Source: Dokdonella sp. (GTDB taxonomy: Bacteria; Pseudomonadota; Gammaproteobacteria; Xanthomonadales; Rhodanobacteraceae). Taken from it: a stretch of DNA of 64,000 nt. The translations under genes and the position numbers were made by a program. Below the pieces are notes generated by a model. The model was not told the origin of the DNA. It searched no databases and was given only the letters and a program-made list of their open reading frames with translations. The DNA is taken from positions 868,001 through 932,000 of the forward strand of contig JANQAE010000001.1 in assembly GCA_024707225.1 (NCBI GenBank), written 5' to 3'. Below, in pieces: positions 721 to 55,356 of the stretch. The first letter of the stretch is position 1; every line of letters begins with the position of its first letter.

Positions 721-754
721 GGAAGCTCTTGAACCGCGACCATTAGAGACGGAC

Positions 755-788
755 GGGTGAGGTTGCCGGAAGCGACCTCGCCCTTTTT
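755..788 (+). terminator. Rho-independent terminator after the amine oxidase-like gene
   Basis: A GGGTGAGGT arm pairs with ACCTCGCCC (nine pairs, one G-U) across an 11-base loop and is followed by five T. It lies 35 bases after the stop at 720 and 27 bases before the next start, so the following gene probably has its own promoter. Confidence 0.7.
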
Positions 789-814
789 CATGACGTTCAC
801 AGACTAGGGGCTTT

Positions 815-2797: not shown

Positions 2798-2835
2798 TCG
2801 CCGGCCGGGGCGTGCGGCCCTGGTGACGAATCGAA

Positions 2836-2863
2836 CGCCCGGCTCCGGCCGGGCGTTTTTTTT
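2836..2863 (+). terminator. Rho-independent terminator after the 660-aa secreted protein gene
   Basis: Perfect 8-bp stem (CGCCCGGC / GCCGGGCG), TCCG tetraloop, then eight T, 38 bases after the stop codon at 2797. This is one of the two strongest terminators in the window. Confidence 0.9.
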
Positions 2864-3046
2864 GGTCGAGTGTCACGCGCCGGCCGCTTCCGCCGTGACG
2901 GCGCGGTCGGGAACGACATCGCGTTGGCCGCGATGCCGATGTCATCGAATGTCCGGCCTCGACGCTTCCTCGGATGCGTGTCGCCACAGACCGGCTGCGT
3001 CCGCCGTATCGGTGCGCATCGGCATCGCCTCTGCGACGGGGCCGAC

Positions 3047-5431
3047 TCAGCGAACGCGCGGCTCCAGGGCCAGTCGATGTCGTGGCGGACCCGGCAGGAA
3101 CGGCGTCGGCGTGCCGCTGGCCCAATCGGCGTGCCCGGCGCCGTAGAAGGGAGACAGCGGATGGCCGCTCTGGCCGCCCGGCATGTGCAGATAGCCGTCC
3201 TGCTCGGCGCCCGGCGAGACCGCGAAACGCTCGGACGCGCCGAAGCTGCGGCCCTGCACGCGCGGCATGTGACTGTCGCCGGGCAGGGCCTGCGCCGGCA
3301 TGTCGAGCCAGCGGCCGAGAAACGCCGGCAACGCGCGCGACAGCGGATGACGGATTCGGGTCGTGTTGCGCTCGCCCCAGGTCCGCTCGGCGATGCCGCC
3401 GGGCCCGGCGCCCAGTTGGGCGGCGACGCGCAGCGCCGAAGCATCGAGCAGGGCGTCCCAGCTGGTGTGGCCGGGCGGCAGCAGATGCGCCGGCCGGAAC
3501 AGCAGCAGGGCCGATACGGCGTGCTCGAACTGGTTCAGCCGTGGCAGCGTGAAGTCGGGGAAGCGGTTGCGCACGGCGGCCGTGATGCCGCCGCGAACGG
3601 TCTCGACGACGTCCTCGCGCCAGGCGCGCACGACCCGGTAGCCGGCCGAGTCGACGTCGGCCTTGCCGGTCCAGTCGGCGAGCGCCGAACGCAACGCATC
3701 GCGAGCCGGTCCGGCGGCCATCGCGTCGAGCTGGCGCGTCAGCGCCTCCTTCCAGGGCTCGAGCAGGGTCGCCTGGTCGTCGAGCTGGATCGCCAGCATG
3801 TCCTGCGGCGAGAAGTGCTCGCGCGCCTGCAGATCGTCGCGGATGCGCATCGCACGGACGCCGAGGTCGTAGCCGCCGTCGCCGAGCACGTCGAGCCACG
3901 GCGATTCGACCATGCGCTGGTTGCCGCTCCAGATGCGCTGCCATGGCGGATCGGCGATCAGCGGATGGTGCGCGCCGTCGATCCAGCCGTCCCAGCCGAC
4001 ACCGGGCCGGCTCCAGTCCGACGGCAGGCTTGCGTCGTAATCGCCGCCGCGCTTGGGCAGGCGTCCGGCGATCGTCCAGGCGATGTGGCCGGCACGATCG
4101 CCGACGATGAAGTTCTGCGCCGGAATGCCGCTCGACTGCGCGATCGCCACCGCTTCGTCGACCGTCTCGGCGGTGTCCAGCGCGAGCAGGCCGGCGTCGA
4201 TCGCGCCGGGCCGATGCGCGGCCCAGGCCAGTGCCAGCGGCGTGCCGTCGACGTCGCTCGCCAGCAGCGGACCCCAGGCGGTCTCGCGCACGTCGAGCGT
4301 GACATCGTCAGCGCCCCTTACGGCGATCGTCTCGCGGACCGTCGTGACCGGCGCCCAGCCGTCGGCGTTCCGGTAGCGACCCGGATCCGCAGCGTCGATC
4401 GAGACCCGGACCCAGTCGGCGAAATCGCCGTAGCTGTTCGTGAAGCCCCAGGCGACGCGGCCGTTGCTGCCGGCGACGATCGCCGGCACGCCCGGCAGCG
4501 AGACGCCGCTGACGTCGACGTCGCGGCCGGGGCGGCGCGGACTGGGATAGACGAAGCGGGCGCGGAACCAGATGTTCGGCACGCGCAGCCCCAGATGCAT
4601 GTCGTTGGCGATCAGGGCCGGGCCGCCGGCCAGCGCGCCGGATACCGCGAAGGCGTTGCTGCCGGGCGTGTCCTGCGACGGCGTGCCGGCGGTTGCGGCC
4701 GCCGCTGCGATCGTGCGCAGGTCCAGGTCGGCCGGCGTCGGCAGTGCCGGCCAGCGCAGCGGCGGTCCGGCCAATGGCGCGTCCCAGCCGCCGCCGGACG
4801 CGGTCACGAAACGGTAGGCCGGCCCGGACAGCGCTGCGTGCAGGCGAGCAAGGCCCAGTTCGCGGGCGTTGCCCGCGTCCTGCAGGTCGAAGAACATCGC
4901 CGCCACGACCAGCAGACTGTCCTCGCTGCGCCACGGCGCCGGTGCGGTACCGGTCAGCAGATAAGGAAACGGACGCACGCGCAGCGCGTGCATGCCGGCG
5001 TTGACGCCGTCGCGATAGCGATCGAGCTGGTCCTTCTGGCCGGCCGGCAGTCGTTCCAGCGCCGCGCTCAGGCGCGCGCGCATGCGATGCACGCGTGCGT
5101 CGCGATCGAGCCCGACGGCGGCCTCGCCGAACAGCTCGGCCAGCTCGCCGGCGGCGCTGCGGCGCATCAGGTCCATCTCGAAATAGCGCTCCTGCGCGTG
5201 CACGTAACCGATCGTCCAGGCGAGGTCGCCGCGATCGGCGGCGCGCACCGTGACCGAACCGGCCGCGTCGCGTTCGACCGTCGCCGGCGCATGCAGCGCC
5301 GCGGCGGCGATGTCACCGTCCAGCTCGGGCAGGCTGCCGCGCAGCAGCATCCAGGCGGTGACCGCGGCGATGCCCGAGAGCACGACCGCCGCGGCGAGCA
5401 GGCGGCCGGTCCAGCGCAGCGCGCGGCGCAT
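3047..5431 (-). CDS. Penicillin acylase family protein (Ntn-hydrolase, S45)
   Basis: The 794-residue precursor has an N-terminal membrane anchor or signal segment (about residues 10-30). The alpha-chain region carries the family stretch WTIGYVHAQERYFEMDLMRR (about 72-91), then a spacer, then GSNAF at about 257-261. The serine of that motif is the expected N-terminal nucleophile released by autocatalytic cleavage. Further downstream are NDMHLGL and the beta-chain features. Such enzymes are periplasmic and hydrolyse amides; in Gram-negative bacteria they act on beta-lactam side chains or acyl-homoserine lactones. The substrate here cannot be told. The ATG at 5431 shares one base with the stop of parC (TGATG), so the two genes are translationally coupled. 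An upstream in-frame extension was rejected because it only reads the end of parC in another frame. Confidence 0.88.
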   Translation of the reverse strand: MRRALRWTGRLLAAAVVLSGIAAVTAWMLLRGSLPELDGDIAAAALHAPATVERDAAGSVTVRAADRGDLAWTIGYVHAQERYFEMDLMRRSAAGELAELFGEAAVGLDRDARVHRMRARLSAALERLPAGQKDQLDRYRDGVNAGMHALRVRPFPYLLTGTAPAPWRSEDSLLVVAAMFFDLQDAGNARELGLARLHAALSGPAYRFVTASGGGWDAPLAGPPLRWPALPTPADLDLRTIAAAAATAGTPSQDTPGSNAFAVSGALAGGPALIANDMHLGLRVPNIWFRARFVYPSPRRPGRDVDVSGVSLPGVPAIVAGSNGRVAWGFTNSYGDFADWVRVSIDAADPGRYRNADGWAPVTTVRETIAVRGADDVTLDVRETAWGPLLASDVDGTPLALAWAAHRPGAIDAGLLALDTAETVDEAVAIAQSSGIPAQNFIVGDRAGHIAWTIAGRLPKRGGDYDASLPSDWSRPGVGWDGWIDGAHHPLIADPPWQRIWSGNQRMVESPWLDVLGDGGYDLGVRAMRIRDDLQAREHFSPQDMLAIQLDDQATLLEPWKEALTRQLDAMAAGPARDALRSALADWTGKADVDSAGYRVVRAWREDVVETVRGGITAAVRNRFPDFTLPRLNQFEHAVSALLLFRPAHLLPPGHTSWDALLDASALRVAAQLGAGPGGIAERTWGERNTTRIRHPLSRALPAFLGRWLDMPAQALPGDSHMPRVQGRSFGASERFAVSPGAEQDGYLHMPGGQSGHPLSPFYGAGHADWASGTPTPFLPGPPRHRLALEPRVR

Positions 5432-7671
5432 CAGCCGCTGGCCTCGATGCGCTCGACGCGCTGGAAGCCGCGCGGCAGCAGGCCGCCGCGCCCGGCGCGT
5501 CCGCCGCCGTATTCGACCAGATCGGCCCATTTGAGGATCAGCTTGCGCTGGCCGGCGTAGAGCGTCACCTCGCCCTTGCCCTCGGCGATCACGGCGACGC
5601 CGGCGACGCGTTCGCCCGCCGCGAACTTGGCCTTCGGAATCTCGATCAGCTTGTTGCCGCGGCCGCCATTGTCGAGCTCGGGCAGATCGGCGACCGAGAA
5701 CATCAGTACATGGCCGGCGGTCGTCGCGACGACGATGCGATCGCGCGCCGGATCGCCGACCAGCGGCGGCGCCAGCACGCGACTGCCGGCGTCGATGTTC
5801 ATCAGCTGCTTGCCGGCCTTCTTGTTGGCCAGCAGCGTCTCGAAACGCGTCACGAAGCCGTAGCCGGTATCGGAGGCCATGACCAGACGCGTGCCGGCGT
5901 CGGCGACCGCGATCGTGTCGATCCGGGCAGCGGTCGGCAGGCTGAAGCGGCCGGTCACCGGTTCGCCGTTGCCGCGTGCCGACGGCAGCGCATGGGCCGG
6001 CAGCGAGTAGCTGCGGCCGGTCGAGTCGATGAAGGCCACCTGCTGGGTCGTGCGTCCCCTGGCGGCGACCAGATAGGCGTCGCCCTCGCGATAGTTCAGG
6101 CCCGGCGCGTCCACGTCGTGTCCCTTGGCCGCGCGTACCCAGCCCTTCTCGCTGAGCACGATCGTGACCGGCTCGCTGGCGACCAGGGCCGACTCGTCGA
6201 GCGCCTGCGCGACCTGGCGCTCGACCAGCGGCGAGCGGCGGTCGTCGCCGTACTTGCGCGCATCCTCGCGCAGCTCATCCTTGATCAGGGTCTTGAGGCG
6301 CGCCTTGGAGTTCAACAGCACGTTGATGCGTGCGCGCTCCTCCTCGAGTTGGTCGCGCTCGGCGTTGATCTTCATCTCCTCCAGGCGCGCCAGCTGGCGC
6401 AGCCGCGTCTCGAGGATGTAGTCGGCCTGCTCCTCGCTGAGCGCGAAGCGCGCCATCAGGACCGGCCTGGGCTCTTCCTCGGTGCGGATGATGCGGATCA
6501 CCTCGTCGAGATTGAGATAGGCCGCACGCAGTCCCTCCAGCAGGTGCAGGCGCTTCTCGACCTTGCCGAGCCGGTGCTGCAGACGCCGCGTCACCGTATC
6601 GGTACGGAAGCGCAGCCACTCGGCGAGGATCTGCTTGAGGTTCTTGACCTGCGGGCGGCCGTCCAGGCCGATCATGTTGAAGTTGACGCGGTAGCTGCGC
6701 TCCAGGTCCGTCGTCGCGAACAGGTGCTGCATGGTCTCGTCGAGGTCGACGCGATTGGAGCGCGGCACCAGCACCAGACGGATCGGGTTCTCGTGGTCCG
6801 ACTCGTCGCGGTAGTCCTCTAGCATCGGCAGCTTCTTGGCCTTGGCCAGCGCGTCGATCTGCAGCAGGACCTTGGAAGGCGAGACCTGATAGGGCAGGGC
6901 GGTGATGACGAGGTTGCCGTCCTCGCGCGTGTAGACCGCGCGGCAGCGCACCGAGCCGCCGCCGGTCTCGTACATCGCGGCCAGCTCGGAGGCCGGCGTG
7001 ATGATCTCCGCGGCGCTCGGGAAGTCCGGGCCGCGGACGTGCTCGCACAGGTCGCGCACGCTGGCGTCCGGATCGTCGAGCAGGCGGATGCAGGCGCTGG
7101 CGAGTTCGCGCAGGTTGTGCGGCAGGATGTCGGTCGCCATGCCGACCGCGATGCCGGTCGAGCCGTTCAGCAGCACGTGCGGCACGCGCGCCGGCAGCCA
7201 GGCCGGCTCCTTGAGCGTGCCGTCGAAGTTCGCGGTCCAGTCGACCGTGCCGTGCGCGAGTTCCTCGAGCAGCAGCTCGGCGATCGGCGTCAGCTTCGAC
7301 TCGGTGTAGCGCATCGCCGCGAACGACTTGGGATCGTCCTGCGAGCCGAAGTTGCCCTGACCGTCGATCAGCGGATAGCGGTACGAGAACGGCTGGGCCA
7401 TCAGCACCATCGCCTCGTAGCAGGCCGAATCGCCGTGCGGATGGAACTTGCCGATGACGTCGCCGACCGTGCGCGCCGACTTCTTCGGCTTGGCCGACGC
7501 CTCGAGTCCGAGCTCGCTCATCGCATAGACGATGCGCCGCTGCACCGGTTTGAGCCCGTCGCCGACGAACGGCAGGGCGCGGTCGAGCACGACGTACATC
7601 GAGTAGTCGAGATAGGCCCGCTCGGCATAGTCCTTGAGGGCGATCTGTTCGTAGTTGGCTTGCAGGTTCAT
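5431..7671 (-). CDS. parC: DNA topoisomerase IV subunit A
   Basis: 746 residues, the usual ParC length. ParC is the breakage-reunion subunit that, with ParE, decatenates daughter chromosomes. The N-terminus reads [14 protein letters not shown], and the quinolone-resistance region reads [13 protein letters not shown], with Ser and Glu at the positions equivalent to E. coli Ser80 and Glu84 (the susceptible-type residues). [10 protein letters not shown] carries the catalytic tyrosine. The C-terminal part forms the beta-pinwheel. The start at 7671 (MNLQANYEQ) follows a GAAGAAG ribosome-binding site; the in-frame extension upstream lacks family similarity. The gene is divergent from asd, with 147 bases between them, and the penicillin acylase gene overlaps its stop. 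parE is not in the window. Confidence 0.95.
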
Positions 7672-8950: not shown

Positions 8951-11467
8951 ATGAAACGACCGTTGCAACTGTCGCTGGCGATCGCGCTGGCGATCAGCGG
9001 TATCGATGCCATGGCCTTGGGCCTGGGCTCGATCCAGGTCAAGTCGCGTCTGAACCAGCCGCTGGAAGCCGAGATCCCGGTCATCCAGAGCAATCCCGGG
9101 GAGGCCGAGGGATTGATCGTGCAGCTGGCCAGCGCCGAGGATTTCGAGCGCGTCGGCCTGGACCGCGCGCGCAGCACGGCCGTCCCGCTCGAGTTCAAGC
9201 TGGTCCGCAACGCGCAGGGGCAGACCGTGATCCGCGTGACCACGGTCGACGCCGTCCGCGATCCGTTCGTCGATTTCCTGATCGAGGCGAACTGGACCAA
9301 CGGCCGTCTGCTGCGCGAGTACACCGTCCTGCTCGACCCGCCGGTCATGGCCGCGGCGCTGAAGGGATCGACGACGGTCGCCGCGTCCCCCGAGCCGGAA
9401 CGCGCGCCGGTCGAACCGCTGCCGGCGGCGACGCCGAAGCCGGCGCCGAAGACCTCCGCCGCACCGCCGCCGGTCGCGCGCGCTCCGGCCGCGCCGCCCG
9501 CGCCGCGCCCCGCGACCGCCGAGGGCGACTACGCCGTACAGAAGGGCGACACGCTGTCGGGCATCGCTCGGCAGGTCCGGCCTGGCGGCGACGTCAGCGT
9601 CGACCAGACCATGCTGGCGATCTTCAAGGCCAATCCGTCGGCGTTCTACAAGGACAATATCAACGCGCTCAAGAGCGGCGCGATCCTGCGCATTCCCGAT
9701 GCCGACTCGATCCGCGCGGTCGGCTCGCTGCGCGAGGCGGCCGAGCAGGTGCGCGGCCAGGTCGAGGACTGGCGCGGCGTTGCCGGCAGTCCGACCCGCA
9801 TCGCGCGCACGTCCGGCGACGCGCAAGCACCTGCGTCCGCCGCGTCGACCGGCACGCGGCCAACCGACGACTCGCGCCTGGCGATCGTGCCGCCGTCCGT
9901 CGGCAAGGACAGTCTCGCCGCCAGCGATCGCGTCGGTGCGAGCAGCGCGGCCGGCGGCAACGGCGATACGCGCCTCAAGAACGAGCTGTCGCGGACCCAG
10001 GAGGCCCTGGCCAGCCGCGAGCAGGAGACCGGCGAGCTCAAATCGCGCGTTCGCGAACTCGAGGATCTGAAGAACAAGAACGACCGCCTGCTGAGCCTCA
10101 AGGATTCGGAGATCGCCGAGTTGCAGCAGCGGCTCAAGGCACTGCAGGACGGGCAGGGCGGCAAGACGGCGGCGACCGCCACGCCGGCCACCGCAGCACC
10201 GTCGGCCGCACCGGCCGGCACCACGCCGCCGACCGGTGCCGAGACGCCGTCCGCGCCGACCAAGGACGACATCTGGGGACGCGGCGACGCGGCTACCGAC
10301 AGCTCGACCGCAGCCCAAACGCCTGCCGCTGCGACGCCGGTCCCGACAGCGCCGCCGGTCGACCCGGCCGCCACGGCGCCGGCAGCGACGCCCGAGACGG
10401 CTGCCACGCCTGCGCCGGTTCCCGGTGACGCGATCACCGCGACCGGCTCGGATACCGCACCGGCGGCGCCGCCGGCCACGCCCGCAAAGCCGCCGGTCGC
10501 GCCGCCGAAGCCGGCCGCCAAGACGCCGCCGAAGCCGGTCACGCCGCCGGCCGACAGCCCCTGGTTCATGGATCCGAAGGTGCTCGGCGGAGCCGGTGCG
10601 ATCGGCCTGCTGCTGGTCCTGCTCGGCGTCGTCGGCCTGCGCAAGCGTCGCAAGCCGGTCGAGCGCTCGTCGATCGCCGAGTCGTTCGGCGACTCGCCGT
10701 TGCCGGCGGTCGCTTTGGCCGGCACGGCCGCGGTCGCCGCAGCCGATCCGATCGAGGCGGCACTGCGCGCGCAGATCGACGCCAATCCGGCCGATCTCGG
10801 CGCGCGACTGGAGCTGCTCAGCCATTTCTATGCCGAACGCCGCGTCGAGGATTTCGAGGCCGGCGCACTGGACATGAACGATTACGTGATCGACCGCAGC
10901 CAGCCCGAGTGGCTCGAAGTGCAGGCGATGGGCCGCGAGCTGCTGCCGGGCAATCCGCTGTTCGCCGGGCCGGGCGGCTACACCGAAACCGTCGCGGACG
11001 CAGGCGACGAGGCGGCCTACGACGAGGCGTTCGCGTTCGACGCACCGGTCGCCGACCCGTTCGAGCCGGCGCCGACGCCGGCTCCGGTGACCGATTTCGA
11101 CTTCGATTTCGACGCGCCCTCGCCGGCCCGCCTCGACCAGCCGGCAGCGCCGCCGGCGGCACCGGCCGACGAGGACGGCTTCGACTTCGGTGACCTGCCG
11201 CCGCTGGACTTCCAGAGCGAGATCGACGCGGCGGCCCGCGATACCGCCGAACGCGCGAACCTGGCCGAGGAAGCCGTACCGTCGGCCTCGCTCGAGGACG
11301 AGTTCTTCGTCGGCGACGATGCCGTCAATACCAAGCTCGACCTCGCACGCACGTATCTGGACATGGGCGATCCGGACGGCGCGCGGGCGATGCTCGAGGA
11401 AGTGCTGTCCGAAGGCAGCCAGGTGCAGAAGGACGAAGCGCGACGCCTGCTCGACGGCATCGTCTGA
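8951..11467 (+). CDS. fimV: FimV family protein (type IV pilus/twitching motility, LysM and TPR-type domains)
   Basis: 838 residues. In order: signal peptide (1-23, ending AMA-L), the FimV N-terminal beta domain ([18 protein letters not shown]), an Ala/Pro-rich linker, a LysM peptidoglycan-binding domain (about 193-251, starting [13 protein letters not shown]), a coiled coil (about 340-400), a long low-complexity A/P/T linker, one transmembrane helix (about 541-561, [14 protein letters not shown]), and an acidic cytoplasmic part ending in the conserved FimV TPR-like motif ([24 protein letters not shown]). In pseudomonads FimV helps assemble the PilQ secretin and activates CyaB. The start at 8951 (MKRPLQLS) follows GGGGGAG. 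The earlier in-frame ATG at 8861 would add residues that look non-coding. Confidence 0.93.
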
Positions 11468-41971: not shown

Positions 41972-42307
41972 CTACCGGTGCGTCGTCGGTCTCGCGTCCG
42001 ATGCGCGTCGCGACTGCGCCATGTCCCGCCTCGACGCCTCGTCCGATCGCCACGCCAGCATCCGGGCCCGAGCGAGCATCGCCAGCTGCGTGCGAGGATC
42101 GTGCTCGCCGAGCGCCTCGCGCCTCAGCCGCTCGCTGCGCTCGAATGCCTCGAGTGCGGCATCGGACCGCCCGAGCCGCGCCCGGACCAGCCCGAGCTGT
42201 CGCGCATAGGCCGCGCGGTCCAGGACATCGAGCATGTCGACCGCGTGCTCGATCGGATCCAGACGGGTCGACACCCTGCCCGGCTGCCCACTGATTTTCG
42301 AGGGCAC
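41972..42307 (-). pseudogene. Possible TPR-protein remnant
   Basis: A 111-codon frame whose middle (AYARQLGLVRARLGRSDAALEAFERSERLRREALGEHDPRTQLAMLARARML) has the A/L/G/Y spacing of tetratricopeptide repeats of the kinesin-light-chain/TPR_10 type. In xanthomonads this type often forms the C-terminal part of serine/threonine kinase-TPR proteins. No kinase or further repeats flank it, and the ends look non-coding. It could be a decayed fragment of a larger gene, a small TPR protein, or chance. Confidence 0.35.
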
Positions 42308-43634: not shown

Positions 43635-44690
43635 TCAACGCACGCCGACGCGTGACTCGCCGGCCGTCAGCGCACCGATCACGGCAGCGTCGCCGAAACC
43701 GGCGGCAGCGAACGTCGCGAGCACCGCATCGACCGCGTCCGGCGCGCAGGCGACCAGCAGCCCACCGCTGGTCTGTGGATCGGTCAGGATCGCGCGATCG
43801 ACCGGCCGCACCGTATCGGCCAGATCGACGCGCTCGCCGTAGGCGGTCCAGTTGCGCGCGGAGGCACCGGTCGCCGCACCGGACTCAGCCAGCGCGCGCG
43901 TCGCCGGCAGCAGCGGAATGCGCGCCATTTCCAGTTGCGCGCCCAGATCGCTGCCGCGCGCGATTTCGAGCAGATGCCCGAGCAGGCCGAAGCCGGTCAC
44001 GTCGGTCATCGCGTGGACGCCGTCGAGTCGCGCCAATTCGATGCCGGGCCGGTTGAGCCGCGTCGTCGTCTCGATCAGAGCCTGGTAGCCGGCCGCATCG
44101 AGCAGGCCCTTCTTGAACGCGGCCGAATGGATGCCCACGCCGAGCGGCTTGCCGAGCACGAGCCGGTCGCCGTCGCGTGCGGTCGCATTGCGCCGCACGT
44201 CGCGCGGGTGCACCAGGCCGATCGCGGCCAGGCCGTAGATCGGTTCGACCGAATCGATGCTGTGTCCGCCGGCGACCGGAATGCCGGCCTGTGCGCAGAC
44301 CGTCTCGCCGCCGCGCAGAATCTCACGGATCGTCCCGGCCGGCAGCGTATCGATCGGCATGCCGACGATCGCCAGCGCGAACAACGGCGTCGCACCCATC
44401 GCGTACAGATCCGACAGCGCGTTGGTCGCCGCGATGCGGCCGAAGTCGAACGGATCGTCGACGATCGGCATGAAGAAGTCGGTCGTCGCGACGATCGCCT
44501 GCGTCTCGTTGAGGCGGTAGACCGCCGCATCGTCCGAAGTCTCGCGCCCGACCAGTAGATCGGCGAAACCGGCCGCCGCCGGCATGTCCTTGAGCAGGCC
44601 GGCCAGCACGCCCGGCGCGATCTTGCAGCCGCAACCGCCGCCATGCGACAGCGAGGTCAGGCGCGGCGTCGGCGTCTGGGTCGTGCTCAT
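43635..44690 (-). CDS. selD: Selenide, water dikinase
   Basis: 351 residues. It makes selenophosphate, the selenium donor for Sec-tRNA, from selenide and ATP. The glycine-rich catalytic loop HGGGCGCK gives C20 and K23, equivalent to E. coli C17 and K20; the position is Cys, not Sec. [22 protein letters not shown] and GGHSID form the ATP/metal site, and [11 protein letters not shown] and [10 protein letters not shown] are further SelD signatures. It is the last gene of the fdh-sel block, 306 bases after selC. It also could serve tRNA 2-selenouridine synthesis, but no ybbB is in the window. Confidence 0.96.
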
Positions 44691-44996
44691 GCGCGGCTAC
44701 TCCCGATCGATGCGCCACGTTACAACGAAGCACGCCGTGCGTAAAAATGCCGCCACGGACGCGCTCGTAGTCCACCGGCAGCGATCGACCGCACCACCCA
44801 ATCAGGACAGGCAACGCCGGTCAGGAATTACCGTCAGCCCACCAGCCGCTTCTACCCAGATATGCCCCCCAACGAAGCCGGCCCTTCTTGAAGAGTGCGG
44901 CCAAGGATGGCCGCGGTAGACCATCCGAAGTTCTCGAACCCGCCCCCCGTTCGCGCCCATCCCGGAGCAGCGTTCAGGGACGAACGCAAAAACACA
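44691..44996. other. Gap between selC and selD
   Basis: 306 bases, minus-strand oriented on both sides. A palindrome GCGGCCA / TGGCCGC (44897-44914) may be a processing or termination element between the tRNA and selD. No open frame with coding character was found. A separate selD promoter may lie here but was not identified. Confidence 0.4.
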
Positions 44997-45092
44997 TGGC
45001 GGAAGGCAGCAGGAGTCGAACCTACCCGGGAGCGATCGTCGCCCCCAACCGGGTTTGAAGCCCGGCCGCATCACCGGATGCGCATGCCTTCC
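44997..45092 (-). tRNA. selC: tRNA-Sec (anticodon UCA)
   Basis: 96 bases including an encoded CCA. It has the special features of bacterial tRNA-Sec: an 8-bp acceptor stem (GGAAGGCA / TGCCTTCC), G discriminator, a long D stem, anticodon loop CTTCAAA with UCA at complement 45056-45058, a very long variable arm (GGGGGCGACGATCGCTCCC) and T loop GTTCGACTC. SerRS would charge it with serine, SelA converts it to Sec-tRNA, and SelB delivers it. It begins 27 bases after the selB stop on the same strand, so it may be processed from a selAB-selC transcript. Confidence 0.97.
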
Positions 45093-45119
45093 GGAATTCT
45101 CGCGCGGCAGTGCCGGCGG

Positions 45120-47114
45120 TCAGCGCATCGGCCAGTGCCCATCGCCGCGCAGCACGTGCGTATCGCGCACGCGGCGAGTGTAGCCAACGCGATCGAAGAA
45201 CTCCAAGATCTGGACGGTACGCTTGCGGCCGAGCCCGATCGCATCGCGATAACGGGCCGCATCGACGCGACCGTCGCGTTCGGCGATCGAGCGGGCGATC
45301 GCGGCGAGTTCGTCGACGCGCTCGCGCGTGTAGAACAGGTCGCGCACGATCTGATGCAGATCGCCGCGCGCCGCACTCTTGCGCAGCGTCTGCCGCACGG
45401 CTGCCTCATCCATGCCGGTCTGCGTCGCCAGATCACGCACCCACGGCGGATCGAAGCGGCCTTCGGCGATCAGCGGCCGCAGACGTTCGACCAGGCCGGT
45501 CTCCTCTTCGCTGAGCACGACGCGGTGCCCGGGCAGCCGCAGCCAGGCGCCGGCGTGTTCGATCGCGCCGGCCGCGACCAGCGCGCCGATCAGGCTGCGC
45601 CAGGTCGCCTCGGCCAGTGGCGGGGCGACGCGCCGGCGCAGCGCCGCCGAACCGAGGCCGGGTTCGTCCGGCGCGGCCTCGTGCACCTGGGCCAGCGTCG
45701 TGACGGTCCGCTGCTGCAGTGCCTGCCAGTACGCTGCATCGAAGATCACCGGTCCGGCCGCGGTCTCGACACGCACGGCCGCCTCGGGCAGCGCGATGCG
45801 CGACGGGTCGCAGCCGCAGAGCCGCTCCAGCTCGGCCAGCGCGATGCCGTGCGGCGCCTGCGCCAGCAGCGCTGCGATGCCCTCGCCTTCGAGCAGGCGC
45901 TCGATCGCATCGAGCCAGGCCAGCCGCTCGGGGCTGCGGCGCCGACGTTCGGGGCCGCTCGGATCGAGCACGCGACCGCCGCCGATCGTCGCGGCGGCGC
46001 GCGCATCGCGCACGATCAGGCGATCGCCGGCGGCTGCGCAGATCGGCGCGTCGAAGACCAGTTGCACGCGGCCGGTTCCGCCCGGCGGCAGCCGCTCGGC
46101 GTCGAGCAGCACGGCCTCGGCGAGACGGTGAGCGGTGCCGACGTGGACATGCAGCGGTGTGCGCTGGCGTGACAGCGCCGGCGCATCGGCGAGCAGGCGC
46201 AGACGTACATCCAGACGCCGACTCGCCAGAAGCGCACGCGGATCGGCCAGCCAGTCACCGCGTGCGATGCCGTCGCCGGCGACGCCGGCGAGATTCAGCG
46301 CACAGCGCTGGCCGGCACCGGCCGTCTCGGCCGCGCGCTGCTGTGCGTGCAGGCTGCGCACGCGGACCGATTCGCCGGCCGGCATGCGGCTCAGCACGTC
46401 GCCGACGCGCACACGGCCGGCGTGGACCGTGCCGGCCGCGATCGTGCCGTGGCCGGGCAGCGTGAACACGCGATCGACCGCGAGCCGGAACAGGCCGTCT
46501 TCCGGGCGGCGTGCGCGCCGTGCCGCGGCCGCATGCAGATGTGCGCGCAAGGCCGCGACGCCGGCATCGCCGTCCGCGCTCGCATCGAGCGCGAAGATCG
46601 GCACCTCGCGCAACGCGGTCGGCGCCAGCACGGCGCGTACGTCGGCCTCGACCTCGGCGACACGGACGGCATCGACGCGATCGATCTTGGTCAACGCGAC
46701 CGCGCCGTCGTCGATGCCGAGCAGATCGAGGATCGCCAGATGCTCGCGCGTCTGCGGCATCACGCCGTCGTCGGCCGCGATCACCAGCAGCGCGAAATCG
46801 ACACCGCCGGCACCGGCGACCATCGTGTGCACGAGGCGCTCGTGGCCGGGCACATCGATAAAGCCGAGCACCGGATCGGCATCGGCCGCCATGGGTCGGT
46901 CCGGCGCGGCCGCGATCGGGCCGCCGCCGTGCGGCTGCACCGCCGGCTCCGCCTCGACCGGGACATAGGCATAGCCGAGCTCGATCGAGATGCCGCGTGC
47001 CTTCTCTTCCTTGAGCCGGTCGGTGTCGACGCCGGTCAAGGCGCGGACCAGGGTGGTCTTGCCGTGATCGATGTGGCCGGCGGTTCCGACGATCACGGCG
47101 TCAGCTGCATCCAT
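45120..47114 (-). CDS. selB: Selenocysteine-specific elongation factor
   Basis: 664 residues. It brings Sec-tRNA to the ribosome at UGA codons followed by a SECIS hairpin. The EF-Tu-like half has [17 protein letters not shown] (G1), [18 protein letters not shown] (G3) and TKID (G4). The C-terminal half consists of winged-helix domains (ending [14 protein letters not shown]), which bind the SECIS stem-loop. An insertion (about 55-70) in the G domain, [17 protein letters not shown], is unusual and near switch I/II. Start is ATG 47114, inside the end of selA; earlier in-frame codons are selA read in another frame. Overlap with selA is 22 bases. Confidence 0.94.
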
Positions 47115-48508
47115 TGCGCGACGAAGTCGGCCTCGTCGCGCTCGGCCAGGCAGCGCAGGTCCAGCCACAATGCCTTGTCGGCGATGCGTCCGAGCACCGG
47201 CCGCGGCAGCGCGCGCAGGCGCGCTTCGAGCCGCGTCACGCTGGCGGCACCGCGCCGCGCCGGACGAATCTGCAGGCCATGGCTCGGCAGCCGGTCGACC
47301 GGCAGCGCACCGCTGCCGATCTGGCTGAGCATCGCTGCCGCGTCCGCCGCGTAATCGGGCCCGAGCGCGGCCTGCACGGCCGGCAGCACCCGCGCGGCCT
47401 GTTCGGCGATCGCCTGCGGCGCGCGCGTCAGCAGTTGCAGTGTCGGCAGTTGCTCGGCCAGCCGCTCCGGCGCGCGGTACAGCGCGAGCACGGCCTCGAG
47501 CGCGGCCAGCGTCGACTTGCCGGTGCGCAGCGCACGCTTGAGCGGATTGCGGTCGAGCCGCGCGATCAGATCGCGGCGGCCGGCGACGATACCGGCCTGC
47601 GGGCCGCCGAGCAGCTTGTCGGCGCTGAACGCGACCAGGTCTGCACCGGCCGCGAGCGTCTCGCGTACGGTCGGCTCCCTCGGCAGTCCCCAGCGCGACA
47701 GGTCGACGAGGCTGCCGCTGCCCAGATCGACCGCGAGCGGCAGCGCGTGCGCATGCGCCAGATCGACGAGCTCGGTTTCGGGCACGCTCGCGGTGAAGCC
47801 GGTGATCGCGTAGTTGCTGGCGTGTACCTTCATCAGCAGCGCGCTGCGCGGGCCGATCGCGGCGGCATAGTCGTGCCGGTGCGTGCGGTTGGTCGTGCCG
47901 ACCTCGACCAGGCGCACGCCGGCGCTGCGCATCACGTCGGGGATGCGGAACGCGCCGCCGATCTCGACCAGTTCGCCGCGCGAGACGATCACCTCGCGGC
48001 GCGCGGCCAGCGTGTTGAGCAGCAGCAGGACCGCCGCGGCATTGTTGTTGACGACGGTCGCCGCCTCGGCGCCGGTCAGTTCGCAGACCAGCGCGGCGAC
48101 CGCCGCGTCGCGGTCGCCGCGGCGGCCGGTCGCCAGATCGAACTCCAGATCGACCGGCTCGGCCGCCGCGCGTGCGGCCGCCTCGACCGCGACGGCCGGC
48201 AACAGCGCGCGGCCGAGATTGGTGTGCAGCACGGTGCCGGTCAGGTTGAACACGGCGCGCATCCGCGGTGCCGCGGTGCGTTCCAGCACCTCGCCGATCG
48301 CCGCGGCGATCGCCGCGGCCGCGATCGCGTCACGCCGCAGCGTGCCGGCGCGTGCGCGCGTGCGCAGCCGGTCGAGCTCCGCACGCAGGGCCGCGACCAC
48401 CGGCGTGCGGCCGTGCCGCTCGATCAGACCGGCGATGGCGGCATCGCCGAGCAGCCGGTCCAGCGCCGGCAGATCGCCGGCGGCCGCGGTGTCCGCGCCG
48501 GCGCTCAT
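47093..48508 (-). CDS. selA: L-seryl-tRNA(Sec) selenium transferase
   Basis: 471 residues (E. coli 463). A decameric PLP enzyme that converts Ser-tRNA-Sec to Sec-tRNA-Sec with selenophosphate. The core shows [52 protein letters not shown] and the PLP lysine in [12 protein letters not shown], all standard. The ATG overlaps the fdhE stop as ATGA, and the C-terminus overlaps selB, so fdhE-selA-selB are translationally coupled. Confidence 0.96.
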
Positions 48509-49470
48509 CGCGCGTCGTCCGGCTCGGCCTGCCACAACAGCGGATGGCCGCTCGCGCGCGCGTAGCCGTGCTCGGCCAGCAGCAGGTCCAGCGCGAGACT
48601 GGCCAGATCGTCGGCGACCGGATCGACGCCGGGATCCTTCTCCTGATAGACGATCTTGCGATAGCTGCTGCACTGCTCGCAGGTCTCGGCACGCACGGCC
48701 TGGTCGAGCGCGCCGGCCGGTTCGCCGGTGCCGTCATCGGCCACCAGCGAGCGGTACGCGACGTCCTTACCGGATGCGCCGCACTGGCTGCACTGCACGC
48801 GCACGAGATGCCATTCGCAGGCGCACAGCGCACAGTGCAGATAGCGGTAGCCGCGATACGGCGCCTGCGCGCGGACGATGCTCGCGACCGGCGGCATGCC
48901 GCAGAGCGGGCACAGGCCCGGCACGTCGAGCGGCTGGACTTCGTCGGCGACCAGGCGGCTCGACGCCGCGGTCCAGTGCACCTGCAGCGCCGCCATCAGC
49001 AGCGGCGCGGCGGCGGTGTCGACGGCACCCTCGCGCACGCCGAGCAGGCGATCGGCCTGGGTATCGGCGTCCTCCATCGACAGCAGGGCGACGCGTTCGC
49101 CGAGCCGTGCGACTTCGACCGGGCAGTCCGCGAGCGCCGCGACGGCGCGTCCGATCGCGCTCAGTGCATCACGCCATGCCGGCGCGCGCGGCCAGGCGGC
49201 CGGCATCGGCGGCATGCGGTGCGCCTGCGCGGCCGAGCGCTGTGCCGGCGTCGGCAGCGTGCCCGGAAAATCGGCGAGTGCGGCGTGCTGCGCGCGGGCC
49301 ACGGCGGCCTGCAGGCGCAGATAGGCGCCGATCGGCGAGGCGACGGCCAGTGCCTCGAAACGCTCGGCGCGCCGTGCGAACAGCGTGTCGCGATCGGGCA
49401 GACGGATGCGCGGTATCGAGCGCTGCGCGAGCGTCTCGATCTGGCCGGGCTCGAGGATGCGCGAGGTCAT
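48505..49470 (-). CDS. fdhE: Formate dehydrogenase accessory protein FdhE
   Basis: 321 residues (E. coli 309). A rubredoxin-like iron-binding cytoplasmic protein needed for activity of membrane-bound Sec formate dehydrogenases before Tat export. Four CxxC pairs are visible in the C-terminal half: [17 protein letters not shown] and CEQC, as in the family. The N-terminal half is helical. Start ATG 49470 ([14 protein letters not shown]). It is 71 bases after the gamma-subunit gene and overlaps selA by four bases. Confidence 0.93.
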
Positions 49471-49541
49471 GGCGGCGGCCCACAGGTCGGGCGACCATCC
49501 TCGCCGCAAGCGCTGCCGGCGTCCAGCGCTGCCGGGCCGCC

Positions 49542-50186
49542 CTACTCGCTCGGATCGCCGCGCGTCACCGCGCGAAACCAGGCGCGGTGATGCTTCCAGG
49601 CCCAGCCGGGACTGACCGTGCCGCGCGTCATCGCGCGGATCGACCCCTTGACCCAGATCGCCGCATAGATGTGCACGACGATCGCGCAGATCAGCACGAC
49701 CGCGCAGAACGCGTGCAGCACCGATGCGAAACGGACCACCTCGATCGGGAAGTAGAACGCGAAGTAGGCGCGCCACATCACGATGCCCGATGCGAGCAGG
49801 CCGATCAGGCACAGGACGATCAGATAGAACAGCAGCTTCTGGCCGCCGTTGTAGCGGCCGACCTCGGGCAGGCGGTCCTCGCGGTTGGTCACGACGTCGC
49901 CGGCGTTGCGCAGCCAGATCCAGTCGCGATGCTGCAGGCGGTTGTAGCGCCACAGACCCGCCGCGAGGATCGCGAACGCCAGCGTCATGACCAGGCCGAT
50001 GAACGGGTGCACGATGCGCGTCCACGGGCCGCCGCCGAACAGAGCGGTCAGCCAGAACAGCGAGGGATGGAACAGCGCCAGGCCCGACAGCGCGAGCAGC
50101 ACGAAGCTGATCGCGACGATCCAGTGGTTGATGCGGGTGCCGGCGCGGTAGCGGACGATGCGCTCCTCGTCGCGAACGCGGTTCAT
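49542..50186 (-). CDS. fdoI: Formate dehydrogenase gamma subunit (cytochrome b556)
   Basis: 214 residues, four transmembrane helices ([77 protein letters not shown]). Histidines in RINHW, HPFIG, LHAF and VVHIYAA are the expected ligands of two b hemes. It anchors the periplasm-facing enzyme and passes electrons to quinone. The N-terminus [15 protein letters not shown] matches FdnI/FdoI. Start ATG 50186 overlaps the stop of the beta subunit gene as ATGA. FdoI and FdnI cannot be told apart with certainty; the symbol follows the aerobic homologue by convention. Confidence 0.92.
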
Positions 50187-51084
50187 GTCGTCTTCTCCCG
50201 TTCGCGGCGCGCGGCTTCCTCGTCGTGCTCGTCGGTCTCGTTCGGGCCGATGCCGATGTAGTGCAGGAAGCCGGCGCGGCCGTCGCGACGATCGCGAGCA
50301 GGCCGAGCGGCTTGGCGACGCCCTTCCAGAGGCCGACGAGCGGGCTGATCCGCGGCTGCTCGGGCAGGCCGGCATAGAGCTGCGGCTGATCGGCGTGATG
50401 CAGCACGTACATCACGTGCGTGCCGCCGACGCCTTCGGGGTCGTACAGGCCGGCCTGGTCGTAGCCGCGCGACTTGAGATCCTCGACGCGCTCGGCCGCG
50501 TGCTGGCGCATGTCCTCCTTGGTGCCGAATTCGATCGCACCGGTGGGACAGGTCTTGACGCAGGCCGGCTCCAGGCCGACCGCGACGCGGTCCGAGCACA
50601 GCGTGCACTTGTAGGCCTTCTTGTCCTTCTGCGAGATGCGCGGCACGTCGAACGGGCAGCCGGTCACGCAGTAGCCGCAGCCGATGCAGTGCTCCTGGTG
50701 GAAGTCGACGATGCCGTTGGCGTACTGCACGATCGCGCCGGGCGACGGACAGGCCTTCAGACAGCCCGGATCGGCGCAGTGCATGCAGCCGTCCTTGCGG
50801 ATCAGCCATTCGAGATCGCCGCTGGCGGTCTCGTGCTCGGTGAAGCGCATCAGCGTCCAGGACTGGTCGCTGAGGTCGGTCGGGTTGTCGTAGTGCCCGG
50901 TGCAGCTGCCGACCTCGTCGCGCAGGTCGTTCCATTCCATGCACGCGACCTGGCAGGCCTTGCAGCCGATGCACTTGCTGACGTCGATCAGCTTGGCGAC
51001 CTGGCCGGTATGCGCGCCGCGCGCCTGCGGCTCGGGCAGCGTGGTCGCCGAGCGCCGGACGATGTCGAGCGATTGCAATGCCAT
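50183..51084 (-). CDS. fdoH: Formate dehydrogenase iron-sulfur beta subunit (apparent 1-base deletion near 3' end)
   Basis: Binds four [4Fe-4S] clusters: [48 protein letters not shown] and CTLCSDR...[10 protein letters not shown], all intact. A C-terminal transmembrane helix anchors it. Within this helix, near 50280-50290, the frame changes: [18 protein letters not shown] is read in one frame and [17 protein letters not shown] in the other. The span of 902 bases is one short of 903, which would encode exactly 300 residues, the length of E. coli FdoH. AGGAGGT lies just before the ATG (51084), eight bases after the alpha-subunit stop. Confidence 0.9.
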
Positions 51085-51092
51085 GGGACCTC

Positions 51093-54000
51093 CTACGCCT
51101 TCTCGACGCGGACCAGGAACGATTTGAATTCCGGCGTCTGCGTATTGGCGTCGCCGACGAACGGGGTCAGGGTGTTGGCGAGGTAGCCCGGCTTGGCGAC
51201 GCCGAGGAAGCCCCAGTGGATCGGCACGCCGACCTGATGCACGACGCGTCCCTCGACCGTCAGCGGCCGGATCCGCTTGGTCACCATCGCGACTGCGACG
51301 ATCTCGCCGCGCTGCGAGGACACGCGCACGCGGCTGCCGTTGGCGATGCCGAGCTCGTCGGCCAGCGCCGCGCCGATCTCGACGAACTGCTCGGGCTGCA
51401 CGATCGCGTTCAGACGCACGTGCTTGGTCCAGTAGTGGAAGTGCTCGGTCAGCCGATAGGTGGTCGCCACGTGCGGGAAGCGGTCCGGCGTGCCGAACGC
51501 GGCGCGGTCGTCCTCGAACACGCGCGCGGCCGGATTGTGCAGTGCCTGCGGCTGGTCCGGGCTCAGCGGGTTGACCGCCAGCGGCGTCTCGAACGGCTCG
51601 TAGTGCTCCGGGAACGGCCCCTCGGCCATCGCGCCGCGCGCGAAGAAGCGCGCGACACCCTCGGGGTTCATGATGAACGGCCCCATCCCGCCGGCCGGAT
51701 TCTCGCCGGCGGCGAAATCCGGCACGTCCGCCCCGCTCCACGCGCTGCCGTTCCACGCGATCAGCGAACGCCGCGGGTCGAACGGCCGGCCGGCCACGTC
51801 GCAGGACGCACGGTTGTAGAGCACGCGCCGGTTGGCCGGCCAGGCGAACGCCCAGTTCAGCGTCTGCCCGATGCCGGTCGGATCGGCGTTGTCGCGGCGT
51901 GCCATCAGATTGCCGGTCGGTCCCCAGGCGCCGCAGAAGATCCAGCAGCCGCTCTGCGTGCTGCCGTCGTCGCGCAGCTCGGCGAAGCCGGCCAGCTGCT
52001 CGCCGGCCTTGCGGACGATCCGCGTCGGGTCCTTCGGGTCGGCCAGGTCCTTGAGCGCGCTGCCGGAGAACTCGCGTGCGAGCTCCTCGGGCGCCGGACT
52101 CTCCGGCTGCGCGTACTTCCAGGTCAGGTTGACGATCGGATCCGGGAACGCACCGCCGTCGGCGCGGTACATCGCCCGCATGCGCACGAACAGGCCGGCC
52201 ATGATCTCCAGGTCGCTGCGCGCCTCGCCGGGCGGCTCGGCGCCCTTCCAGTGCCACTGCAGCCAGCGCGAGGAATTGGTCAGCGAGCCGTTCTCCTCGG
52301 CGAAGCAGGTGGTCGGCAGACGGAACACCTCGGTCTGGATCGCCGAGGAGTCCACGTCGTGCAGCACCCCGTGGTTCTTCCAGAACTCGCTGGTCTCGGT
52401 CGCCAGCGGATCCATCACGACCAGGTACTTCAACTTCGAGAACGCCGCGGTCAGCTTGGCCTTGTTCGGCGCGGCCGCGAGCGGGTTGAAGCCCTGACAG
52501 ATGTAGCCGTTCATCCTTGCCCTGGTGCATCAGCTCGTAGGCCTGCAGCATGTCGTAGGGCTTGTCGAGCTTGGGCAGGTAGTCGAACGCCCAGCGGTTC
52601 TCGGCGGTCGCCGCCTCGCCCCACCAGGTCTTCATGAAGCTCACGAAGAACTTGCGGTAGTTCTGCCAGTAGCTGAGCTGGTTGGGCCGCAGCGGCTTGG
52701 GCGCGCGCGCGGCGATGTAGGCCTCGAAATCCTGCTCGGCCTGATTCGGCAGCGTCATGTAGCCGGGCAGCAGGTTCGACATCAGGCCGAGGTCGGTCAG
52801 GCCCTGGATGTTGGAGTGGCCGCGCAAGGCGTTCATGCCGCCGCCGGACACGCCGATGTTGCCGAGCAGCAGCTGCACCATCGCGCCGGTGCGGATCATC
52901 TGCGAGCCGATCGAGTGCTGGGTCCAGCCGAGCGCGTACATGATCGTCATCGCGCGGGTCGGCGTCGCGGTCGAGGCGATCATGTCCCAGATCGCCAGCA
53001 CCTTGTCCTTCGGCGTGCCGCAGACGCGCTCGACCATCTCCGGCGTGTAGCGCGCGTAGTGGCGCTTGAGCAGGCTGTAAACGCAGCGCGGGTCGGTCAG
53101 CGTCGGATCGGTGCGGACATAGCCGTCCTCACCGATCGCGTAGTCCCAGCTGGATTTGTCGTAGGTGCGGCGGCCGGCGTCGTAGCCCGAGTACAGCCCC
53201 TGCTCGAACGCGAACTCGTCCTTCACGACGAACGCGAGGTCGGTGTAGTTGACGACGTACTCGCGCTGGATCGCGTCGTTGGTCAGCAGGTGGTTGATCA
53301 GGCCGCCGAGGAAGACGATGTCGGTTCCGGTGCGGATCGGCGCGTAGACGTCGGCCACCGAGGCCGAGCGCGTGAAGCGCGGATCGACCACGATCAGCTT
53401 GGCCTTGTTGTGCGCCTTGGCCTCGGTCACCCACTTGAAGCCGCACGGATGCGCCTCGGCCGCATTGCCGCCCATGATCAGGATCAGGTCGGCATTCTTG
53501 ATGTCGACCCAGTGATTCGTCATCGCGCCGCGGCCGAACGTCGGGGCAAGACCTGCCACCGTCGGGCCGTGTCAGACGCGTGCCTGATTGTCGAATGCGA
53601 GCAGGCCGAACGAACGGGCGACCTTGTGCGTCAGATAGCCGACCTCGTTGCTCGAGGCCGAGGCCGCGAGCATGCCGGTGGTCAGCCAGCGGTTGACGGT
53701 GAGGCCGTCGGGCGTGGCGGCGACGAAGTTCGCGTCGCGGTCGGCCTTCATCAGCTTGGCGATGCGCTCGAGCGCCTCGTCCCAGGAGATGCGCTGCCAG
53801 GTGTCCGAGCCCGGCGCGCGGTACTCCGGAAACTTCAGGCGGCTCTCGCTGTGGATGAAGTCGATCAGCGCCGCGCCCTTCGGGCACAGCGTGCCGCGAT
53901 TGACCGGGTGATCCGGATCGCCTTCGATGTGGAACAGGCTCGGCCGCGCATTCTTGGCGCCGTCGCCGAGTCCGTACATCAGCACGCCGCAGGCGACCGA

Positions 54001-54162
54001 GCAGTACGGACAGGTATTGCGAGTCTCGGTCGCACGGGCCAGCTTGAACTGGCGCACCTCCGCGAGCGCGGGGCCGGGCGAGAAGCCCATGAGCGCCAGG
54101 CTGGAACCCACCAGGGTCGTCCCGGTGACTTTCAGGAACTGGCGCCGAGTCAGAGCAGACAT
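51093..54162 (-). CDS. fdnG: Formate dehydrogenase alpha subunit, selenocysteine- and Mo/W-bis-MGD-containing (UGA at 53572-53574; apparent +1 frameshift)
   Basis: Oxidises formate to CO2 in the periplasm. Twin-arginine signal [10 protein letters not shown] (about 5-14); [4Fe-4S] motif [14 protein letters not shown] with a later GTLCPKGA; then RV[24 protein letters not shown], where an in-frame TGA (complement 53572-53574) aligns with Sec196 of E. coli FdnG. Bis-MGD binding and C-terminal domains ([57 protein letters not shown]) follow. At about 52515 one extra C on the plus strand shifts the frame: HQGK goes on as DERL instead of [11 protein letters not shown]. Removing it gives 1022 residues; E. 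coli FdnG has 1015. Start ATG 54162 follows GAGGAGAACGTC. First gene of the block. Confidence 0.94.
53542..53574 (-). promoter_or_regulatory. UGA-Sec codon with bacterial SECIS element in fdnG
   Basis: TGA is at 53574-53572, followed after ten bases by a hairpin with the features SelB recognises: stem CGG/CCG, a bulged U (53558), an upper stem GGCA/UGCC, and apical loop GGUCU (53553-53549). E. coli fdhF and fdnG have the same bulged U and the same GGUCU-type loop. A lower stem of GGCC-type pairs may extend it. The element lies within the coding sequence, which constrains codon choice there. Confidence 0.92.
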
Positions 54163-54645
54163 GACGTTCTCCTCGATCGCTGGTCGCGGCGCCGCCTCGC
54201 GGGAGCGGGAGAACGCCGTACTGGCCTCGGATGACACATCGACGCATCAGGCGCGGCGAGTATAGATCAACTTCCGGGCGCGTCTCGATGTCACCCGCGC
54301 GTCTTGCGGCGTCGCAGCAAACGCCATGCCGCCCGTGCTTGCATGACGTAACGATGACTGCGGGTCGCCGCCGTTCAGCGCTGGCGCGGTGACGCTGTGG
54401 CAGTTTGCGTCTCGCCGCGCGAGACACCTGCCCGGCACCCTGCTCGACATCGACCTTCCACAGCTCACGCGCCGGACTTCGATCACCGCGCCATGTCATC
54501 GTGCACGCCCGATTTCACCGCCGACCTGCCGCGCGCGCTCGCCGCGCCGGCGCGCGGCATGGTGCCGTCGGCCGGCACCGGCGCGATGACACATGACACC
54601 GTGCGCGCCCGCGGTGCCGCCACCACGCAGCAACAGGAGAACGGC
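54163..54645. other. Divergent intergenic region, fdnG / T5orf172 gene
   Basis: 483 bases with no convincing gene. It should contain promoters for the fdn-sel block (minus) and the rightward gene. Upstream in-frame ATGs of the rightward gene at 54493 and 54586 lie here and could extend it. Beyond the -10 candidate at 54259-54264 no clear FNR, NarL or sigma-54 site was found. Confidence 0.4.
54259..54264 (-). promoter_or_regulatory. Candidate -10 element for the fdnG operon
   Basis: On the minus strand TATACT lies about 97 bases before the fdnG ATG, directly after TTGATC, which equals one half of an FNR box (TTGAT). The corresponding -35 position (CGAGAC) is poor, which would fit an activator-dependent promoter. 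Weak evidence. Confidence 0.3.
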
Positions 54646-55356
54646 ATGCTCGACATGTCAGCCCAATCCCTCACCACGCCGATGCCCGGAGCCGCCGATT
54701 CGCAGTCGCACGCGATCGGCGACGGCGTAACCGATGCGGACCGGCCGGCCGCCAGCGGCTGGCGAACGCTGCGCAACGGGCGTTGCTTCGTCTACGTGCT
54801 GCCGTGTCGCGAGTCCGACACGATCAAGGTCGGCTACGCACGCGATCCGCTGGTCAGGCTGCACGCGCTGCATGCGCGCTACTTCGAGTTCTTCGACCTG
54901 GACCGCGCGCTGCTGGTCGAGACCGACTACGTGCGCGACGCGCGTGAGATCGAGCGCCGCCTCAAGCAGGCGCTGGCGGACGATGCGGTGACGGCGCCGC
55001 TGAGCGTGCGCGAGGCCGCCGGCGGTCGGACCGAATGGTTCGGCGGCGCCTGGTCGCGCGCGGTGGCGCTGAGCGAGCGGATCTGCGAGGAGGACGGCTA
55101 CCTGCTGCATCCGCAGCTGTCAGCCTGGCTGCGCGTGCGCTGGTTTCGCGACGCGGCGCTGTACGACTGGTCGCAGCAGGCGCTGCGGCAGATCGAATTC
55201 TTGAGCTTCAACGGTGCGCCCGACACCGCGCAGAAGCTGCACCGCGAACTCAAGAACGCGCTCGACGCCTGTGACGCGGTCGGTCTGCGGCTCGAAGGCA
55301 AGGTGCCGGGGGCCGTACTGGCCTGGTATCGATCCGGCGCGCGCGCGTTCGGCTGA
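54646..55356 (+). CDS. GIY-YIG-like (T5orf172/MUG113) domain protein
   Basis: 236 residues from ATG 54646, which follows ACAGGAG by a normal distance; earlier ATGs (54493, 54586) give unlikely N-termini. Residues ~43-115 match the T5orf172 pattern: CFVYVLPCRESDTIKVGYARDPLVRLHALHARYF with VYVL and KVGYA in place of GIY and YIG, then VETDYVRDAREIERRLKQAL carrying the conserved Glu. The remainder is helical and unrecognised. Such domains occur in phage and mobile-element proteins and in DNA-processing enzymes. Whether this one cuts DNA is unknown. Convergent with nadD, divergent from fdnG. Confidence 0.7.
   Translation: MLDMSAQSLTTPMPGAADSQSHAIGDGVTDADRPAASGWRTLRNGRCFVYVLPCRESDTIKVGYARDPLVRLHALHARYFEFFDLDRALLVETDYVRDAREIERRLKQALADDAVTAPLSVREAAGGRTEWFGGAWSRAVALSERICEEDGYLLHPQLSAWLRVRWFRDAALYDWSQQALRQIEFLSFNGAPDTAQKLHRELKNALDACDAVGLRLEGKVPGAVLAWYRSGARAFG

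Follow-up and report, generated by a model that had tools for sequence, protein, structure and literature searches.

Gene content of the selenocysteine cassette

The 64,000-nucleotide stretch of the Dokdonella sp. genome analysed in this study (referred to below as the window) carries on its minus strand a block of eight genes, which encode a selenocysteine (Sec)-type formate dehydrogenase together with the components for Sec synthesis and insertion. As shown in Table 1, NCBIfam, ARAGORN and Rfam confirmed the gene order that had been given in a preliminary description of this DNA, i.e. fdnG(Sec)-fdnH-fdnI-fdhE-selA-selB-selC-selD, running from the ATG codon of fdnG at 54162 to the stop codon of selD at 43635. 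The alpha, beta and gamma subunits of the membrane formate dehydrogenase follow one another (the alpha and beta subunit genes each with a frame change), and selA, selB, selC and selD are all present and adjacent. Protein assignments were made with NCBIfam profiles at curated cut-offs, which were passed by SelD, SelB, SelA, FdhE and the gamma and beta subunits. Each piece of the alpha subunit remained below the whole-protein cut-off of TIGR01553 because fdnG is read in pieces; together, the three pieces cover this profile from end to end (profile positions 2-194, 201-547 and 549-1009 of 1009), and the middle and C-terminal parts form a single open frame in a congener, G019.

Table 1. Features of the selenocysteine cassette (positions are those of the window)
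Feature	Position	Strand	Evidence
fdnG, 5' part, ATG to in-frame TGA	53572..54162	-	TIGR01553, E 3.7e-72
SECIS element, overlaps the Sec codon	53519..53577	-	RF01989 SECIS_3, 85.2 bits (gathering 63)
fdnG, middle part, Sec codon to frame change near 52515	52516..53571	-	TIGR01553, E 1.6e-160
fdnG, C-terminal part, different frame	51093..52514	-	TIGR01553, E 2.4e-189
fdnH, iron-sulphur beta subunit, frame change near 50275	50183..51084	-	TIGR01582, 449.8 bits (cut-off 334.7)
fdnI, cytochrome b gamma subunit	49542..50186	-	TIGR01583, 183.2 bits (cut-off 115.85)
fdhE, formate dehydrogenase accessory protein	48505..49470	-	TIGR01562, 254.4 bits (cut-off 187.65)
selA, L-seryl-tRNA(Sec) selenium transferase	47093..48508	-	TIGR00474, 580.1 bits (cut-off 267.9)
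selB, Sec-specific elongation factor, GTG start	45120..47096	-	TIGR00475, 427.3 bits (cut-off 242.25)
selC, tRNA-Sec, anticodon tca	44997..45092	-	ARAGORN tRNA-SeC; Rfam tRNA-Sec, 77.2 bits
selD, selenophosphate synthetase, 351 amino acids, without internal stop	43635..44690	-	TIGR00476, 421.2 bits (cut-off 125)

Overlaps had been described at most junctions of the block, but they occur at only three of the seven (fdnH/fdnI, fdhE/selA and selA/selB), each of 4 nucleotides (nt). The remaining four junctions are gaps of 8, 71, 27 and 306 nt, the last two of which separate selB from selC and selC from selD. One promoter-like site was detected upstream of fdnG (0.6 expected) and two terminator-like sites in the scanned stretch (2.8 expected), both of the latter between selC and selD; neither result lends support either way.

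The Sec codon of fdnG is an in-frame TGA (53572-53574) at the predicted active site, and the match to the Sec insertion sequence (SECIS) model SECIS_3 lies upon it. This TGA is kept in 107 of the 109 loci that were aligned over that place (145 sources examined), and the two loci with TGC, a cysteine (Cys) codon, are remote paralogues (L076 and L085).

Searches of the whole genome (4,366,231 bases in 4 contigs) revealed a single match to selD, a single match to SECIS_3 (150 of 2681 candidates scored) and a single true tRNA-Sec gene (150 of 669 tRNA-Sec candidates scored). Another Rfam tRNA-Sec match above the cut-off (49.2 bits) was rejected as selC, since it is a tRNA-Ser; the possibility of a second selC or selD elsewhere, raised in the preliminary description, was therefore not borne out. 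No SelW-type protein was found in the genome, and within searches that covered SECIS_3 carriers and SelW types fdnG indeed remained the only visible selenoprotein gene. selU (ybbB) was not found in the genome search. The proposal that the block is a self-contained unit did not hold: the sole fdhD found lies on another contig, C3, and the block is therefore not a self-contained formate dehydrogenase unit. The molybdenum cofactor genes and seryl-tRNA synthetase (SerRS) are also needed from outside the block. Contig C3 carries, in addition, a second formate dehydrogenase-like frame with Cys where FdnG has Sec, located about 6 kb from fdhD (G000:C3, L174, about 2105-3181 and 9529-10242).

Distribution and phylogeny of two cassette types

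With SelB as the query (E 1e-60), matches were obtained in 54 of the 233 genomes of the family Rhodanobacteraceae (47 of 192 good ones), representing 10 of 26 genera, and the other 179 genomes, some of them incomplete, gave none. In a sample of the order, SelB was present in 50 of 398 genomes, all within two families. Two of the ten genomes of the genus have SelB; in a third, G023, a contig of 6,150 bases breaks off within selB and holds selC and selD besides this SelB fragment, and no block was found in the 3.6 kb following its nadD.

The 54 genomes were divided, by identity to the window SelB, into (i) type A, comprising 14 genomes including the window's own (genera g1, g4, g24 and g25; relatives with 59–71% SelB identity to the window), and (ii) type B, comprising 40 genomes (g5, g7, g9, g12, g16 and g22; 41–48% identity). 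None of the 54 genomes was found to contain two SelB genes (five candidates scored per genome at the same threshold). G210 was considered as a double-SelB genome and rejected, its two matches being adjoining pieces on one contig.

selD adjoins the Sec genes in 52 of the 53 family relatives with SelB and in all 11 loci of the second family. In type A relatives it lies downstream of selC and is co-oriented with it (13 of 13 loci, although in 6 of these the contig or the stretch examined ends too early for all eight genes to be whole), as it is in the second family (11 of 11), while 39 of 40 type B loci have it inverted (none is shown in L162). The record L068, titled Candidatus Eremiobacteraeota bacterium, has a SelB row identical to that of L162, and its title looks wrong. 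Among the named loci of other organisms (n = 80, many cut short), selD occurs within the stretch in 16, which indicates that clusters containing selD are the minority outside the order. It is co-oriented after selC in six of them, from Stenotrophomonas sepilia, [Pseudomonas] boreopolis, Achromobacter, Verticiella, a Nitrospirae genome and Novimethylophilus.

Two type A loci of genus g24 are interrupted between fdnI and fdhE, L124 by 3.2 kb and L132 by 6.6 kb. The insert of L132 (G210, 262-6898) carries a CitMHS-type transporter, a PALP-glutaredoxin protein, and MlaE, ABC and MCE-type genes, and that of L124 (G208, 3930-7151) gave no match in the four frames scanned. No selenium gene was detected among 14 frames scanned in the DNA inside the cassettes of L124, L127, L130 and L132.

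The relative position of selB and selC also varies. Of the 40 type B loci, 17 have the selB stop codon inside selC, always 48 nt in, but such an overlap was also observed in two of the 14 type A loci (L127 and L130; 71 nt) and in 14 of 67 named loci, nine of which have selC wholly within selB. Since its position in L127 and L130 differs from that in type B, the overlap seems to have arisen more than once, and it is no clean marker of the Alphaproteobacteria-type cassette.

Phylogenetic trees were constructed with 86 and then 48 of 143 rows for SelB, 78 and then 45 of 134 for SelA, 46 and then 35 of 79 for SelD, and, for the middle part of FdnG, 43 of 111 rows. Near-duplicate rows of Pseudomonas, Alphaproteobacteria, type B and the second family were thinned, as were many Betaproteobacteria in the smaller trees. 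Long or remote rows (L076, L081 and L084-L087; in the smaller trees also L062, L079, L080, L082, L083 and L088) and the doubles L027 and L068 were removed, and rows in which a single alignment spanned less than 75% of the query were omitted. L043, titled Pantoea sp. Ap-967, was also excluded; its cassette identities resemble those of Pseudomonas loci. Branch support was assessed with the Shimodaira–Hasegawa-like approximate likelihood ratio test (SH-aLRT), and groupings with the approximately unbiased test (p-AU).

A single clade for the whole family was rejected in every case (p-AU 9e-69 for SelB, 2e-5 for SelA, 1e-57 for SelD and 8e-5 for FdnG). Type B grouped with Alphaproteobacteria (support 100 for SelB, 99 for SelA and 86 for FdnG); in the SelD tree not all alphaproteobacterial rows stood with type B, and the grouping was not rejected (p-AU 0.192). 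The type A rows of both families fell on one side of a branch for SelA (100) and SelB (94), and placing them together was not rejected for SelD (p-AU 0.158) or FdnG (p-AU 0.36). In the SelB and SelA trees type A adjoins Betaproteobacteria, and the type A of the order may therefore trace back to an ancient transfer at its base.

Relation to known clusters and origin of the cassette

Clusters of this kind have been described before. Passages of Mukai 2021 (PMC8124441) name an fdoGHI-selABCD cluster (Sinorhizobium meliloti pSymA, Rhizobiales), discuss transfer among Alpha-, Beta- and Gammaproteobacteria, and report for Dyella and Luteibacter, also Rhodanobacteraceae, a selB stop at nucleotides 46-48 of selC, for which transfer from Alphaproteobacteria is suggested. 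The window likewise combines a Sec formate dehydrogenase with selA, selB, selC and selD, but differs from the Dyella/Luteibacter form of those passages in that selC follows selB after 27 nt without overlap and selD is co-oriented. That form matches our type B; the window SelB is of type A, and its cassette is not of the Alphaproteobacteria type (selC overlapping selB, SelB nearest Rhizobiales).

The relevant portion of Zhang 2006 (PMC1794560) describes a selA-selB-selC cluster with a neighbouring fdhA in Pseudomonadales and Betaproteobacteria and proposes transfer of the cluster together with fdhA. The window shares with it the clustered Sec genes and a formate dehydrogenase neighbour that is the only selenoprotein found; however, that paper has selD evolving separately and, in Pseudomonadales, sharing an operon with ybbB, whereas in the window it adjoins selC. 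Peng 2016 (PMC5029168) states that, in most donors and recipients of Sec traits, selD and the other key genes lie near the only selenoprotein gene or share a single operon with it, as is the case in the window for selD and the sole selenoprotein gene found; the word start 'xanthomon' is absent from the main text of that paper. Romero 2005 (PMC1273633), in the lines concerned, calls selD rarely contiguous to selAB, in contrast to the carriers of this order that were read, among which contiguity is the rule. A further paper (PMC4498112) mentions a selABCD cluster from Streptomyces that occurs together with formate dehydrogenase-O. A literature search pairing Dokdonella with selenocysteine found no paper.

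The layout of the block is real, but it is common in the order and has already been described, and the window copy is an ordinary member of a known cluster. Comparison of the sequences indicates that it very probably represents the proteobacterial fdoGHI/fdnGHI-fdhE-selABCD cassette in its type A version, which is shared by two families and is most plausibly ancient, passed on by descent and lost many times, and that type B, the Alphaproteobacteria-like version, entered other genera of the same family separately. In Rhodanobacteraceae there are probably two unrelated whole cassettes, never found together in the 54 SelB-bearing genomes (type A in four genera, type B in six others); the entire set of Sec genes, selD among them, would then have been acquired, lost or exchanged as a unit. 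Whole-cassette movement within the family is supported for type B. The value of the window lies in this comparison, since two versions of the cassette appear to be mutually exclusive in one family. If this is true, Rhodanobacteraceae would provide a natural test of whether the Sec trait must travel whole, and in particular of whether selABC can move without selD into hosts such as this one, in which no selenouridine pathway that could retain a resident selD was detected.

The genes of the cassette, perhaps read as one transcript, would act together as follows. The alpha subunit of a membrane-bound respiratory formate dehydrogenase would receive Sec at its in-frame UGA. SelD would supply selenophosphate, SelA would convert Ser-tRNA(Sec) into Sec-tRNA(Sec), the tRNA being the product of selC, and SelB would deliver this tRNA at the SECIS element by the UGA. 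FdhE is predicted to help in the assembly of the enzyme, which would oxidise formate outside the membrane and pass the electrons via FdnH and FdnI to the quinone pool. FdhD, the molybdenum cofactor and SerRS would be supplied by the host from elsewhere.

The preliminary description had regarded the block as a unit able to transfer the trait in one step. The dense packing, and the movement of whole cassettes in type B, agree with that idea in general; for this copy, a special transfer island is not supported. A recently acquired mobile Sec island, having entered in one step from a betaproteobacterium, would accord with the patchy presence of SelB in the family, the order and the genus, with the position of type A beside Betaproteobacteria, with flanks that are mostly unlike between genera, and with a 24-nt repeat pair (88%) outside both block ends, at 42097 and 56977. 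We nevertheless consider such an island unlikely, as type A is common to a second family, the layout is the rule among those SelB carriers of the order that were read, and the block of G019 occupies the equivalent position between the same genes. Moreover, the G+C content of the block is 0.706 vs 0.701 and 0.668 in the flanks, no integrase was detected among the named neighbours (only part of the neighbours was scanned), and the repeat pair belongs to a set of 40 short, imperfect repeat families in this G+C-rich stretch, with no convincing end repeats among the 20 inspected. The same gene order in relatives and trees fitting descent, which had been named as arguments against transfer, were largely found among the carriers, although most genomes of the family have no SelB match. 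Nor would a coincidental packing of adjoining genes be credible. The 306-nt gap between selC and selD with its two terminator-like matches, and the interruptions in L124 and L132, are features that could be expected of it, but the same gene order recurs in named Betaproteobacteria and in both families, three junctions overlap by 4 nt, and the arrangement is conserved across genera despite unlike flanks.

The frame changes in fdnG and fdnH raise the question of whether the locus is decaying and the trait being lost. Both frames are open in G019 (whose FdnH is 91% identical), and 7 of the 10 genomes of the genus have no SelB match, which would suit such decay; we nevertheless judge it quite improbable. 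Frame changes are also present in nadD (near 55600) and leuS (near 58855), and of 31 frames compared with G019 eight show a change (9 changes in all), including leuS; of these eight, one frame is antisense and another records the fdnH change a second time. The genes leuS and nadD are generally regarded as essential, and because they too are shifted, assembly indels are the likelier cause. Uncorrected indels of this kind likely lie behind the frame changes, although one assembly cannot decide. The reading frames of selA, selB, selD, fdhE and fdnI are uninterrupted, and the selC gene is whole.

The reading of the window copy as an old, inherited and functional type A cassette has several observations against it. 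The lack of a SelB match in seven congeners and the mostly different flanks of type A between genera (27 loci compared) also fit repeated gain. FdnG rejects the family's type A rows as one clade (p-AU 0.00276): G036 clusters with the second family and G229 lies outside, which makes some exchange within type A likely. The trees are quick ones with SH-aLRT support only and no bootstrap, in which family and genus assignments of the genomes stand in for a species tree. In addition, the folding energy of the SECIS element is no better than that of shuffles (z -0.04), and, with fdnG and fdnH both shifted in frame, this assembly does not demonstrate a functional enzyme.

The locus and its flanks

The neighbourhood is shared with G019 from about 17.5 kb of the window to past its end, with the common order chaA, block, T5orf172, nadD, holA, leuS and rsfS; G019 has, between leuS and rsfS, one additional frame that is unmatched in the window genome. 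The T5orf172-domain protein (54577-55353) lies between the block and nadD, and occupies the same place in G019. The preliminary description had placed the block where rsfS-rlmH would be expected, but rsfS is not displaced: it was located at G000:C1:932425-932715, just past the window, about 8 kb from nadD and on the far side of leuS. The frame beside it is presumed to be rlmH (not searched by name). No match to holA or leuS was found near rsfS in 8 congeners (stretches of 6–20 kb each). holA as such is present in 9 of the 10 genus genomes but not in G026, whose rsfS is at a contig start.

As to whether relatives lack the block at this site, G019 has it, and no empty site was seen in the 7 congener stretches read beside nadD, where the DNA after nadD shares nothing with the block's other flank. 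Because of this, and because chaA occurs in only 2 of the 10 genus genomes (the other 8 show none), no empty site can be named.

Flanks of L123, L124, L125, L130, L132, L133 and L247 matched no other locus. Matching flanks were observed (i) within the g38 set of the second family, (ii) among L126, L127 and L129 (g4), (iii) between L128 and L131 (g25), (iv) between the window and G019, and (v) between L027 and L254, a record and its double. The chaA-side genes were also found at the opposite end of the block in G036, with a weak match in [P.] boreopolis.

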